Source: Lumbricus terrestris (taxonomy: Eukaryota; Annelida; Clitellata; Crassiclitellata; Lumbricidae). From it: a stretch of DNA of 64,000 bases. Shown piece after piece: positions 20,450-29,318 of this stretch. The notes beneath the pieces are model-generated. The model did no database searches, was not told where the DNA came from, and was given only the letters and a program-made list of their open reading frames with translations. The stretch is taken from the NCBI GenBank assembly GCA_949752735.1, contig OX457040.1, forward strand, positions 3,676,583 to 3,740,582, given 5' to 3'. Position 1 is the first letter of the stretch; the number at the start of each line of letters is the position of its first letter. Both the position numbers and the translations under genes were made by a program.

Positions 20450-20455
20450 AGCGTG
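20450..20455 (+). repeat. 6-bp target site duplication, left (AGCGTG)
   Basis: AGCGTG immediately before the left TIR, repeated at 29313-29318 immediately after the right TIR. Six bases is the duplication length of Polinton-type integrase insertion. Confidence 0.88.
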
Positions 20456-20881
20456 AGTAGAGGAAATACGATGCAGTAAGCCCTCAACTTTTTCTAGCCC
20501 GTCACGTGACTGTATGACGTCATCTGTAATGTATACTCTCACTGAAGACCCTTGTTTTTGGCCCACTGGGCTGTAAATCGTCACGCTTCACTGATCACGC
20601 TCTTTGATCCTTTTGATCTTTTGTTCTTTTATATTATGATGATGATGATGATGATGATGAGATGCTGTAGGGATGCTGAAGGGGTGGGGAAGGGCTGGGG
20701 AAGGGGCTGGGGAAGGGGAAGGGCTTGGGAAGGGCATGCGCGCCCCTCCTCCCCCTAACCCTAACCCTAACCCTAACCCTAACCCTAACCCTCCCCCTCC
20801 CCTCTCCCTCCCCTCTCCCTCCCCTCCCCTCCCCGCTCTCCCTCTCCCCCTCCTCCATGCTTCGTCAGCGCATTTCGATTG
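20456..20881. repeat. Left terminal inverted repeat of the PolB element
   Basis: Starts AGTAGAGGAAATACGATG. In order: unique text with CACGTGACTG and TGACGTCAT, a (GAT)8 run, G-rich AAGGGGCTGGGG units, six CCCTAA units, C-rich CCCTCCCCTCTCC units, then TCCATGCTTCGTCAGC. It matches the right TIR almost perfectly apart from repeat counts. Confidence 0.93.
20753..20793 (-). repeat. Telomere-type (TTAGGG)6 inside left TIR
   Basis: Six perfect CCCTAA units on the plus strand, so the G-rich strand runs 5' to 3' toward the left end of the element, as at a chromosome end. About 300 bp from the terminus. Confidence 0.95.
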
Positions 20882-21200
20882 CACAGCTGATACAGAGGCT
20901 GACTCATTCTCAAATCATTTCTTTGCACTATAAGACGAGCGATATTTTAAAATTATAAGAGATACCTTTTGATTTTGACTCTCCCCCTCCTCCTCCACCA
21001 TGCTTGGTCAGCGCCTTTCGATTTTCAACAGCTGATACAGAGACTTAGTCATTCTCAAATCATTTCTTTGTACTATAAGACGAGCGATATTTTAAAATTA
21101 TAAGAGATACCTTTTAATTGTGACTCTCCCCTCCTCCACGCTTCATCAGCGCCTTTCGATTTTCATCAGCCGCTACAGTGTCTTAAATACGCACAATTTA
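20858..21200 (+). repeat. Subterminal tandem repeat, ~140-bp unit, 2.4 copies
   Basis: Units start CTCCATGCTTCGTCAGCGC, CACCATGCTTGGTCAGCGCC and CCACGCTTCATCAGCGCC and share TATAAGACGAGCGATATTTT and TAAAATTATAAGAGATACC. The first copy begins inside the TIR. A looser version of the ATAAGACG/AAATTATAAG text continues to about 21470. Confidence 0.88.
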
Positions 21201-21604
21201 TATGGCGCCACATGCACTAAAAGACATGTTCGATTTTTAAGAGGCTGTTTTGACTTGTATGGCATTCACCAGACAGCTCTTTTAAAACGGTAGATTTCTT
21301 TATAGGACATGCGTCGTAAGATGCGCACTATTTTTAAATTATAAGAGCCATGCTTCGATTTGTAAATTTCTGTTTTGGCTTGTGAGGAATTCATCAACCA
21401 ATTCTTTTAAAACGGTACTGTGCTTTGTAGGACATGGCCTATAAGACGAGGTATAGCTTAAAATTATAAGTTGCATGGGTCGATTTGTAAGATTCTGGTC
21501 ATTTCATTTTTGAGTTGTGTGCTATTCGCCAACTCTTACGAACAACTGAACGATTTTCTACTCTCGCGCAAGCTCATCTACTCTCGTCTGATCTCATCTG
21601 CAAT

Positions 21605-21958
21605 GGCCCAAGCATGCTTGGACTCGTCTGACCGGTATAATAGAATTATTCATCACACATCTGGCATAGCAGGCTCAGGACGCGCCAGCTGCTATATTCT
21701 GTCATCAGCAGCAGAATTCATGTCTAAGCATGCCTGGACGAGCCTGCATTTGTCTCATCTCGTCTGGACTCGTCTGCCTGGCATAATAGAATTAATCATC
21801 ATGCACCTGGCATTGCATCCTCAGGACGCACCAGATGCTAGAGCCTGACGTCAGCAGCAGAATTCATGGCCAAGCATGCCTGGACTCGTCCGACCGATAT
21901 AATAGAATTATTCACCCGCATCTGACGTAGCGTCCTCAGGGCGCCCCAGCTGCTAGAC
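21605..21958 (+). repeat. Second tandem repeat, ~115-bp unit, 3 copies
   Basis: Each unit carries AAGCATGCYTGGAC, ATAATAGAATTA, CTCAGGACGC and CAGCAGCAGAATTCATG. The middle copy has an extra ~30 bp. A 125-codon frame crossing it (21471-21848) has no recognisable domain and looks incidental. Confidence 0.88.
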
Positions 21959-21969
21959 TTAGTGACACC

Positions 21970-22050
21970 ACATATATTTAAAAGGCATAAAAGATGAATC
22001 TTTTACACATGATAGTACTTTTATTAATGCAACTACGAAAGATCTCATCA
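21970..22050 (+). other. Candidate promoter and first exon of the polymerase gene
   Basis: An A/T-rich box TATATTTAAAAGG (about 21973) lies 10-20 bp before an ATG at 21994. From there 19 codons (MNLLHMIVLLLMQLRKISS) run to a possible donor at 22051 (A|GTATTG). Splicing to the acceptor at 22283 keeps frame (phase 0). The exon is hydrophobic at its start. This is the only upstream ATG I found that can be joined in frame, but the donor is weak. Confidence 0.3.
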
Positions 22051-22283
22051 GTATTGTGGGAAGCTGCTCACATAGCCTTTATACATAAGGCTGACTTTTG
22101 TATACGGCAAAACATAGCATGGGAATTCTAATGAAATTGTATTGCTGATCGCGATTTCTTATATTAATACATAGTAAAATATTTTATTGTGAAACCTTCT
22201 TTAACACTATACTATTTTCTGTGCGACGATTCTTTTAAATCTTTAATATATGCATAATTTTCTCTCTTACATAAACTAATCAG

Positions 22284-27921: not shown

Positions 27922-27927
27922 TTTATT
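27922..27927 (-). terminator. Polyadenylation signal of the PC4-like gene
   Basis: TTTATT on the plus strand is AATAAA on the minus strand, 16 bp after that gene's stop. The two convergent transcripts must overlap or end within about 50 bp of each other. Confidence 0.7.
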
Positions 27928-27942
27928 CAGAAATATCTAGAT

Positions 27943-28657
27943 TTAAAGTCCGAAAGGATTACATTGAGTGCATGTTGCAGCGCCCAATTGATTTGCATGA
28001 TCTAAAGAACTATAGCAGGGCTTAGCGTTTTTTAGTTCTGGCAAATATTCATGCAGCATTTCAATTTTGAGTAGAAGGCTGGCCCATTCATCCAGACGTA
28101 GGGCGATGCCGCTGCGGGTTGGTCTCTCCTTGATTGAGTTTGGTGGTAGAAAGTATCGTCGAATATTCACACATCTGAATTCGTTGGAGATTGATGCATA
28201 GTAGCGGCCACCGAGATGTTGGTAGATATCAACAGATTGATTCGCTTTCATCAGTTGCACGTTTCTGTCCAATTCGTCCAGACAAGCTCGAAATCTCGCC
28301 CAAGCAGATGCGTTGAAGGATACCCCTTCTTGGTGGGATAGGTTTTGTCTCCATCTTCAGCATATTGACGAATGTGTACCATGAGCTCGTTCTTGTAGTA
28401 GCTGGCCGTCAGAAAACGATTGTTGCCTATCGCCTCTTTGAAATTCATAGCCTACAGAAGAAGAAAATAAGAGAAAGATATTGTTAGTTATATCGTAAAT
28501 GCATATATAAATGTTTATTCATACTGCACACAAAAAAAAAGTTCTTCAATATAGAGTTTAGAGAAAATTTCAAAATACTTACTGGAATTGGTATTAGAGA
28601 ACGTGTTGCAAGCATCTTCCGATCTTCCGCTGTAGTAAGCTGTAAATGTCGACACAT
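27943..28657 (-). CDS. Two-domain PC4-like ssDNA-binding protein, one frameshift
   Basis: Exon 1 is 28657-28583 (ATG at 28657, 25 codons, donor CCA|GTAAGT). Exon 2 starts at 28451 after TTCTGTAG and keeps frame (phase 0). Exon 2 shows two PC4-type folds: one around YKNELMVHIRQY with YPTKKG (~28400-28330), and one around RCVNIRRYFLPP, PTRSGIALRLDEW (~28180-28080). PC4 (p15) family proteins bind single-stranded DNA as a beta-sheet plus helix with KxGISL-type and W positions, which match here. Inside the first domain, at the four C's 28323-28326 (plus strand), one base appears to be missing: the upstream frame soon stops (28251) while the other frame carries the family's expected residues on. 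It is either a disabling deletion in a G run or a sequence error. Role inferred: single-strand binding during element replication, or transcription. Confidence 0.72.
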
Positions 28658-28698
28658 CGAAAATGAAATAGAAATGCTTCCAGTCTGTCCAAATGCCT

Positions 28699-28706
28699 CT
28701 TTTATA
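28699..28706 (-). promoter_or_regulatory. TATA box of the PC4-like gene
   Basis: TATAAAAG on the minus strand, 42 bp upstream of the ATG at 28657, leaving room for a start site about 25-30 bp downstream and a very short leader. Confidence 0.5.
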
Positions 28707-28863
28707 ATGCAAGTATTGCACAACCATAAGAAATGGCTGCATGTAAAAATAGCTTTTGGGAATTATAAGGGCCATGGGAACTTGTTGTGGGTTTTCTTGA
28801 ACAATCATGATGACTAAGCAGCTGTAGCAGCTGCTGTACAATGAGAATGACTAATCCGCAGTA

Positions 28864-29312
28864 CAATCGAAATGTGCTGACGAAGCATGGAGGAGGGGGA
28901 GAGGGAGAGCGGGGAGGGGAGGGGAGGGGAGGGAGAGGGGAGGGAGAGGGGAGGGGGAGGGTTAGGGTTAGGGTTAGGGTTAGGGTTAGGGGGAGGAGGG
29001 GCGCGCATGCCCTTCCCAAGCCCTTCCCAAGCCCTTCCCCTTCCCCAGCCCCTTCCCCAGCCCTTCCCCACCCCTTCAGCATCCCTACAGCATCTCATCA
29101 TCATCATCATCATCATCATCATCATCATAATACAAAAGAACAAAAGATCAAAAGGATCAAAGAGCGTGATCAGTGAAGCGTGACGATTTATAGCCCAGTG
29201 GGCCAAAAACAAGGGTCTTCAGTGAGAGTATACATTACAGATGACGTCATACAGTCACGTGACGGGCTAGAAAAAGTTGAGGGGCTTACTGCATCGTATT
29301 TCCTCTACTACT
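28864..29312. repeat. Right terminal inverted repeat of the PolB element
   Basis: Reverse complement of the left TIR with the same order of blocks: 11 rather than 8 GAT units, an extra GGGCTTGGGAA unit, and five rather than six telomere units. The extreme end read inward is AGTAGTAGAGG, one AGT triplet more than the left end. Confidence 0.93.
28958..28991 (+). repeat. Telomere-type (TTAGGG)5 inside right TIR
   Basis: Five perfect TTAGGG units, G-rich strand pointing to the right end of the element; about 320 bp from the terminus. Confidence 0.95.
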
Positions 29313-29318
29313 AGCGTG
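29313..29318 (+). repeat. 6-bp target site duplication, right (AGCGTG)
   Basis: Directly follows CCTCTACTACT, the right end of the element, and equals the left copy. Confidence 0.88.

Follow-up and report, generated by a model that had tools for sequence, protein, structure and literature searches.

A PolB- and PC4-encoding Polinton-like element of Lumbricus terrestris as the probable replication segment of a bipartite adintovirus-like Polinton

An 8.9-kb Polinton-like element was analyzed in a 64,000-nucleotide stretch of the genome of Lumbricus terrestris (assembly GCA_949752735.1, contig OX457040.1, positions 3,676,583 to 3,740,582; hereinafter referred to as the window). The element, located at positions 20450-29318 of the window, encodes a DNA polymerase (PolB) and a PC4-like protein, and probably serves as the replication segment of an adintovirus-like Polinton with a bipartite genome. 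More generally, two-segment linear double-stranded DNA (dsDNA) viruses of the Polinton/adintovirus kind probably exist, in which PolB and PC4 (segment A) and integrase, ATPase, protease, penton, and major capsid protein (MCP; segment B) are carried by segments that depend on each other and end in identical termini; this division would have persisted in two or more lineages whose termini differ, with both segments multiplying in the host germline as proviruses. The parts are known, and what is new is likely the two-segment arrangement. No report of a bipartite or segmented Polinton was found in the literature searched, a scope that included text of PMC11071296, PMC11071308, PMC8363768, and PMC12567637 but not the founding adintovirus paper.

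The element was bounded by a perfect 6-bp target-site duplication, AGCGTG (20450-20455 and 29313-29318), and by terminal inverted repeats (TIRs) of approximately 440 bp. The left TIR (20456-20891, forward strand; tip AGTAGAGG) contained a CCCTAA array at 20753-20792, and the right TIR (28854-29312, reverse strand; tip AGTAGTAGAGG) contained an AGGGTT array at 28958-28991. The two TIRs were 99% identical in a 180-bp core and 92% identical across 462 aligned bp, and the right tip carried one AGT more than the left tip. Telomere-like (CCCTAA/TTAGGG)n arrays were thus present in both TIRs, and were also seen, by eye from translations, in the TIRs of the capsid-bearing and palindromic copies described below.

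Three TIR types were searched in the host genome, and the best 40 candidates each of 178, 372, and 99 were scored. The search with the window TIR (TIR1; 178 candidates) yielded 17 inverted pairs, 8.2-11.6 kb in length, as well as six unpaired ends. PolB and/or PC4 were enclosed by six of these pairs (both genes in five, PC4 only in one) and MCP by eight, and no pair enclosed both modules; the remaining three were two palindromic elements (L033 and L034) and one unclassified element (C13). As judged by eye, MCP was found within 9.5 kb inward of four unpaired ends and PC4 within the same distance of one, and the sixth had an MCP 9.9 kb away. Five TIR1 elements without listed PolB or PC4 were fetched, of which three were capsid-bearing and two palindromic. 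The capsid-bearing elements (L031, L032, and L035/L036; ~9 kb) encoded a RING open reading frame (ORF), ATPase, integrase, protease, two penton-like ORFs, and MCP. Proteins of L031 matched Pox_A32 (1.4e-5), rve (2.3e-9) together with Chromo (1.5e-9), and Peptidase_C5 (2.1e-5), which places the adintovirus-defining rve integrase with a C-terminal chromodomain on segment B. None of the ten segment B proteins matched a helicase family above the Pfam cut-off, PF00910 being found below the cut-off in the ATPase.

A search with MCP returned 3527 homologs among 7993 candidates, and no named adintovirus hexon was present among the 120 listed. The closest homolog (P0121) was 85% identical, and its structural model (mean pLDDT 65, pTM 0.70) matched the capsid proteins of Sputnik, SGIV, and mavirus (Foldseek E 1e-13 to 8e-11); on this model, the segment B MCP matches double-jelly-roll capsid proteins. 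The two further ORFs are penton-like by position and size only, and the second carried an insertion in the C8 copy. The RING-finger ORF, located beside the ATPase gene (L031:700-1041; zf-C3HC4_3, E 3.6e-9), is a possible host-interaction gene.

Over 200 bp, the TIRs of two segment A elements and three segment B elements were 97-99% identical to each other, the same level as within each kind. Further inward, the left end of the window element aligned with L036:4366-5756 at 82% identity over 1411 bp, and an asymmetric end of 1.3-1.4 kb was present on one side of each segment kind. Alignment and tandem arrays placed this long end at 20456-21777 (forward strand) in the window element, where it consists of the TIR and subterminal 145-bp repeats; it may be a signal for replication or packaging. 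The left part of the element contained two tandem arrays, one at 20836-21185 built of 145-bp units and one at 21619-21885 built of 146-bp units. As in Polintons/Mavericks, TIRs were accompanied by a perfect 6-bp target duplication in 17 of the 18 elements with both ends recovered, including segments A and B and palindromic forms. The TIRs of L033 and L034 matched those of the window element, and both were near-perfect palindromes (arms ~2.8-3.6 kb, 99%) with perfect 6-bp duplications, whose interiors showed no match to either module. Palindromic snap-back defective genomes are expected from protein-primed replication, and these two elements resemble by-products or satellites.

The separation of the two modules was also observed genome-wide, where the best 93 of 890 MCP candidates, 42 of 1609 PolB candidates, and 150 of 194 PC4 candidates were scored. 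None of the 42 PolB copies and none of the 150 PC4 copies had a scored MCP within 25 kb, the nearest being 93 kb from PolB and 27 kb from PC4. The segment B proteins of L031 gave no match better than E 0.77 to 15 fetched PolB copies, and PolB and PC4 gave no match at E<=1 to the segment B loci. The rve integrase, ATPase, protease, and MCP, which in a Polinton/Maverick share one element with PolB, were therefore found not on the PolB element but on other elements that have the same TIRs; complementary genes on separate segments with common termini are the arrangement of a segmented or multipartite genome.

As a prediction test, capsid elements were also sought with the TIR of another PolB+PC4 element, L020 (TIR3), which is 41-43% identical to the window TIR, and capsid elements bounded by this TIR type were found. 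The 17 TIR3 pairs comprised five with PolB and/or PC4 (both in three, PC4 only in two), four with MCP, and eight without a scored gene, and none with both modules; two of six unpaired TIR3 ends lay beside PolB and/or PC4 and four beside MCP. Because the TIR3 pairs show the same division, the A/B split recurs with common ends. No full-length helper with the same TIRs was seen among 34 pairs of two TIR types. A further family (L021-L030) encoded a PolB 90% identical to that of the window element, had unrelated TIRs of ~530-580 bp (TIR2; four of five fetched copies), and showed no PC4 in the five copies fetched.

Both modules bore signs of purifying selection. No internal stop was present in 35 of the 42 scored PolB copies, and no stop in 138 of the 150 PC4 copies and 74 of the 93 MCP copies. 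PolB pairs had dN/dS ratios of 0.07-0.26 (0.07-0.14 where dS exceeded 0.1). Uncorrected PC4 ratios were 0.16-0.24 in the deeper pairs and ranged from 0 to 0.56 in the four closest, which had few changes; the uncorrected ratios of the pooled segment B genes of three copies were 0.20-0.22. The low ratios in the genes of both segments indicate that both modules were kept working. In a tree, 13 PolB copies formed four sublineages, and TIRs differed among those with tips recovered.

Within the window element, the PolB exon (24357-27687, forward strand) formed an open frame across 1,108 codons. We take it to comprise an N-terminal region with terminal-protein-like and OTU-like parts, an exonuclease, an endonuclease-VII-like insert, and a palm. 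A search with PolB returned 1218 homologs among 7993 candidates; among the 120 listed, several close homologs carried PF03175 and one was named adintovirus PolB, and the six named by organism came from four bivalves (Pinctada, Mizuhopecten, Mytilus, and Pecten), a spider, and a coral. The PolB of Corynactis coral adintovirus was 39% identical to the window PolB. The window protein itself gave no Pfam polymerase match at E<=1. In a 29-row alignment, columns D284/E286, D588, D685, K848, N852, and D948/D950 were invariant and are presumably polymerase and exonuclease residues, and a Cys110/His204 region of the putative OTU-like domain was conserved, although without a Pfam OTU match. By homology, the PolB would be of the protein-primed type of Polintons/Mavericks. 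PHROGs returned only weak endonuclease VII matches for PolB, and Rfam, tRNA, and phage-collection searches found nothing.

Upstream of the PolB exon, a zinc-ribbon exon (23788-24101, forward strand) is predicted to be the 5' exon of the PolB gene, joined to it by a predicted GT-AG intron that keeps the frame (24102-24356, forward strand; by eye). This exon preceded PolB in all 15 fetched copies, and a similar cysteine-rich stretch was seen by eye at the N-terminus of the Pinctada homolog (P0023). A 98-aa ORF (22513-22809, forward strand), possibly an upstream exon, was matched at E<=1e-3 in all ten PolB+PC4 copies L011-L020 (partially in L019), and in none of the loci L021-L030. The PC4-like gene (27943-28451, reverse strand) matched PF02229 (E 3.3e-5; 23.7 bits, slightly below the curated cut-off of 25), and its frame, 169 aa in L012 and the nine copies compared with it, was broken in the window copy, in which 137 aa remained open.

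A sequence-only reading of this DNA had described an element with TIRs, the AGCGTG duplication, and an intact polymerase exon, all of which were borne out by alignment and the open PolB frame. It had counted two genes between the TIRs; PolB and the PC4-like gene are indeed there, but the latter is broken, and the zinc-ribbon exon and the 98-aa ORF have to be added. The left 1.8 kb, read as tandem repeat, proved to be only partly so, in the 145-bp and 146-bp arrays. Its statement that nothing of the kind of an integrase, ATPase, protease, or capsid gene is visible held when ten L031 proteins were compared with the whole window: no similarity was found inside the element, the sole match being the protease outside it (E 0.14).

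Directly outside the element, the window contained a reverse transcriptase ORF (RVT_1, 471 aa) at 18122-19537. Very long trinucleotide arrays were present at 4423-4972 (CAT x183) and 14538-15362 (GAA x276). In addition, two separate short tandem arrays (33601-33804 and 56848-57071) had a largely common unit sequence as judged by eye.

From the gene contents and the equal 6-bp duplications, a division of labor between mutually dependent segments can be proposed. The segment A PolB would use protein priming to initiate DNA synthesis at the AGTAG tips that the two segments have in common, and PC4 would serve as a single-strand binding protein. The difference of one AGT between the left and right tips would fit sliding-back initiation. 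The segment B integrase would insert both segment kinds in trans, with 6-bp duplications, and the segment B ATPase, protease, pentons, and double-jelly-roll capsid would package both segments via their common ends.

Relatives of the two modules were also found outside the host loci. A PolB relative was present on 14 contaminant (mis-binned) contigs. Two of these, L059 and L062, also carried ATPase, protease, and MCP, with PolB-ATPase-protease-MCP lying within 5.5 kb in L059; L052 carried a PolB relative with integrase and protease, and the remaining contigs were short. Because PolB and capsid genes occur together in these relatives, the unsplit state is probably ancestral and the split derived. 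PC4 and MCP homologs were found on database contigs of equal size (12970, 2695, and 5606 bp), which suggests that PC4 lies near MCP in relatives. An IMG/VR scan with a single PolB gave no locus, a scan with the PolB alignment gave two relatives at 37% (L001 and L002), and a scan with MCP gave none. L001 also encoded a relative of the L031 integrase, along with capsid- and ATPase-like ORFs recognized by eye.

Segments A and B might instead have arisen by reciprocal deletion from a monopartite virus, which would still supply both functions as a free virus or from rare full-length copies. We consider this unlikely: unsplit relatives such as L059 and L062 do exist, and the palindromic elements resemble defective genomes, but none of the 34 TIR pairs of two types combined scored genes from the two modules, fetched copies of either module contained no remnants of the other, both modules are under selection for function, and the split is seen alike with two TIR types. 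Deletion of a single copy, the case in which the sequence-only reading would have failed, was ruled out, since all ten fetched PolB+PC4 copies were collinear in 98-aa ORF, zinc-ribbon exon, PolB, and PC4; together with the 42 PolB and 150 PC4 copies scored, this establishes the element as a recurring one. That reading had suggested either a distinct replicating lineage without a capsid or a satellite of some larger relative, and had advised looking for longer integrase-bearing relatives with these TIRs. Integrase elements with these TIRs were found, but they were ~9 kb long and without PolB, and the existence of same-sized, same-TIR elements carrying the integrase and capsid module speaks against either idea for the window element. 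A self-sufficient capsid-less PolB transposon lineage, whose ends capsid elements merely borrowed, is accordingly improbable here: segment A has no visible integrase, yet shows 6-bp duplications like those of the rve-bearing segment B; no polymerase was seen in segment B, which must then depend on something like segment A; and the A/B pairing recurs with a second TIR type. Such a lineage could still fit the TIR2 family, with its PolB-bearing pairs, no scored MCP, and no PC4 in the fetched copies. Least probable is that ends came to be shared by chance or convergence through gene conversion among unrelated repeats: the TIRs do contain simple GA-rich and telomere-like repeats, but their outer 200 bp are 97-99% identical, an asymmetric end of 1.3-1.4 kb is common to both segment kinds, and the sharing recurs with an unrelated TIR type.

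Several points count against a bipartite virus. A virion, co-packaging, and trans-replication are proposed here from genome sequence. PolB was found in 11 of 17 TIR2 pairs, no scored gene in six, and MCP in none, so that the TIR2 partner is either absent or outside the 93 scored capsid copies, which limits generalization. Pairs without a scored gene numbered one for TIR1, eight for TIR3, and six for TIR2; a full-length element could be missed, as only the best candidates were scored; and genome-wide separation was judged by MCP alone. PC4 is broken in the window copy, and the capsid-bearing L031 showed no clear duplication. Furthermore, close PolB and MCP database relatives were found on contigs of equal size (32451 and 32263 bp), and near relatives may therefore be unsplit.

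Adintoviruses/Eupolintoviridae (Polintons, Mavericks) share with the present elements the PolB family, an rve integrase with a C-terminal chromodomain, an A32-type ATPase, an adenain-like protease, a double-jelly-roll MCP, TIRs, and 6-bp duplications, but here the genes are divided over two ~9 kb elements. Eupolintoviridae are tabulated as linear dsDNA of 15-40 kbp (PMC12567637), and adintoviruses are defined, in the text consulted, by a chromodomain-tailed rve integrase, a PolB with an N-terminal OTU-like domain, and a hexon recognizable by BLASTp (PMC11071296). Bidnaviruses and Vesanto virus, the latter described with up to twelve segments (PMC8363768), likewise have an adintovirus-type PolB and several segments with similar TIRs. 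Bidnaviruses are described as single-stranded DNA (ssDNA) viruses with a parvovirus-type single-jelly-roll capsid and an NS1 helicase (PMC11071296), whereas a double-jelly-roll capsid, a packaging ATPase, and an integrase were found here, and a parvovirus-type VP with NS1 helicase was not. Polydnaviruses, the sole dsDNA family among the segmented viruses tabulated in PMC5680193, also have segmented dsDNA with proviral segments in an animal genome. They are not known to have reciprocal replication and capsid segments with common TIRs. Their segments are circular and carry wasp genes. Mitochondrial linear plasmids are, like segment A, capsid-less linear elements with a protein-primed PolB and TIRs, but we know of no capsid-bearing partner of theirs with the same ends. 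Genome segmentation is widespread in RNA viruses and also occurs in ssDNA viruses.

If the bipartite arrangement is true, the gene set thought to define Polintons can be kept in trans, and a Polinton split in this way would offer a natural system for studying why and how genomes turn multipartite. In that case, any animal-genome PolB element regarded as 'capsid-less', or capsid element regarded as 'PolB-less', would need a search for a partner with the same TIRs before being called defective.

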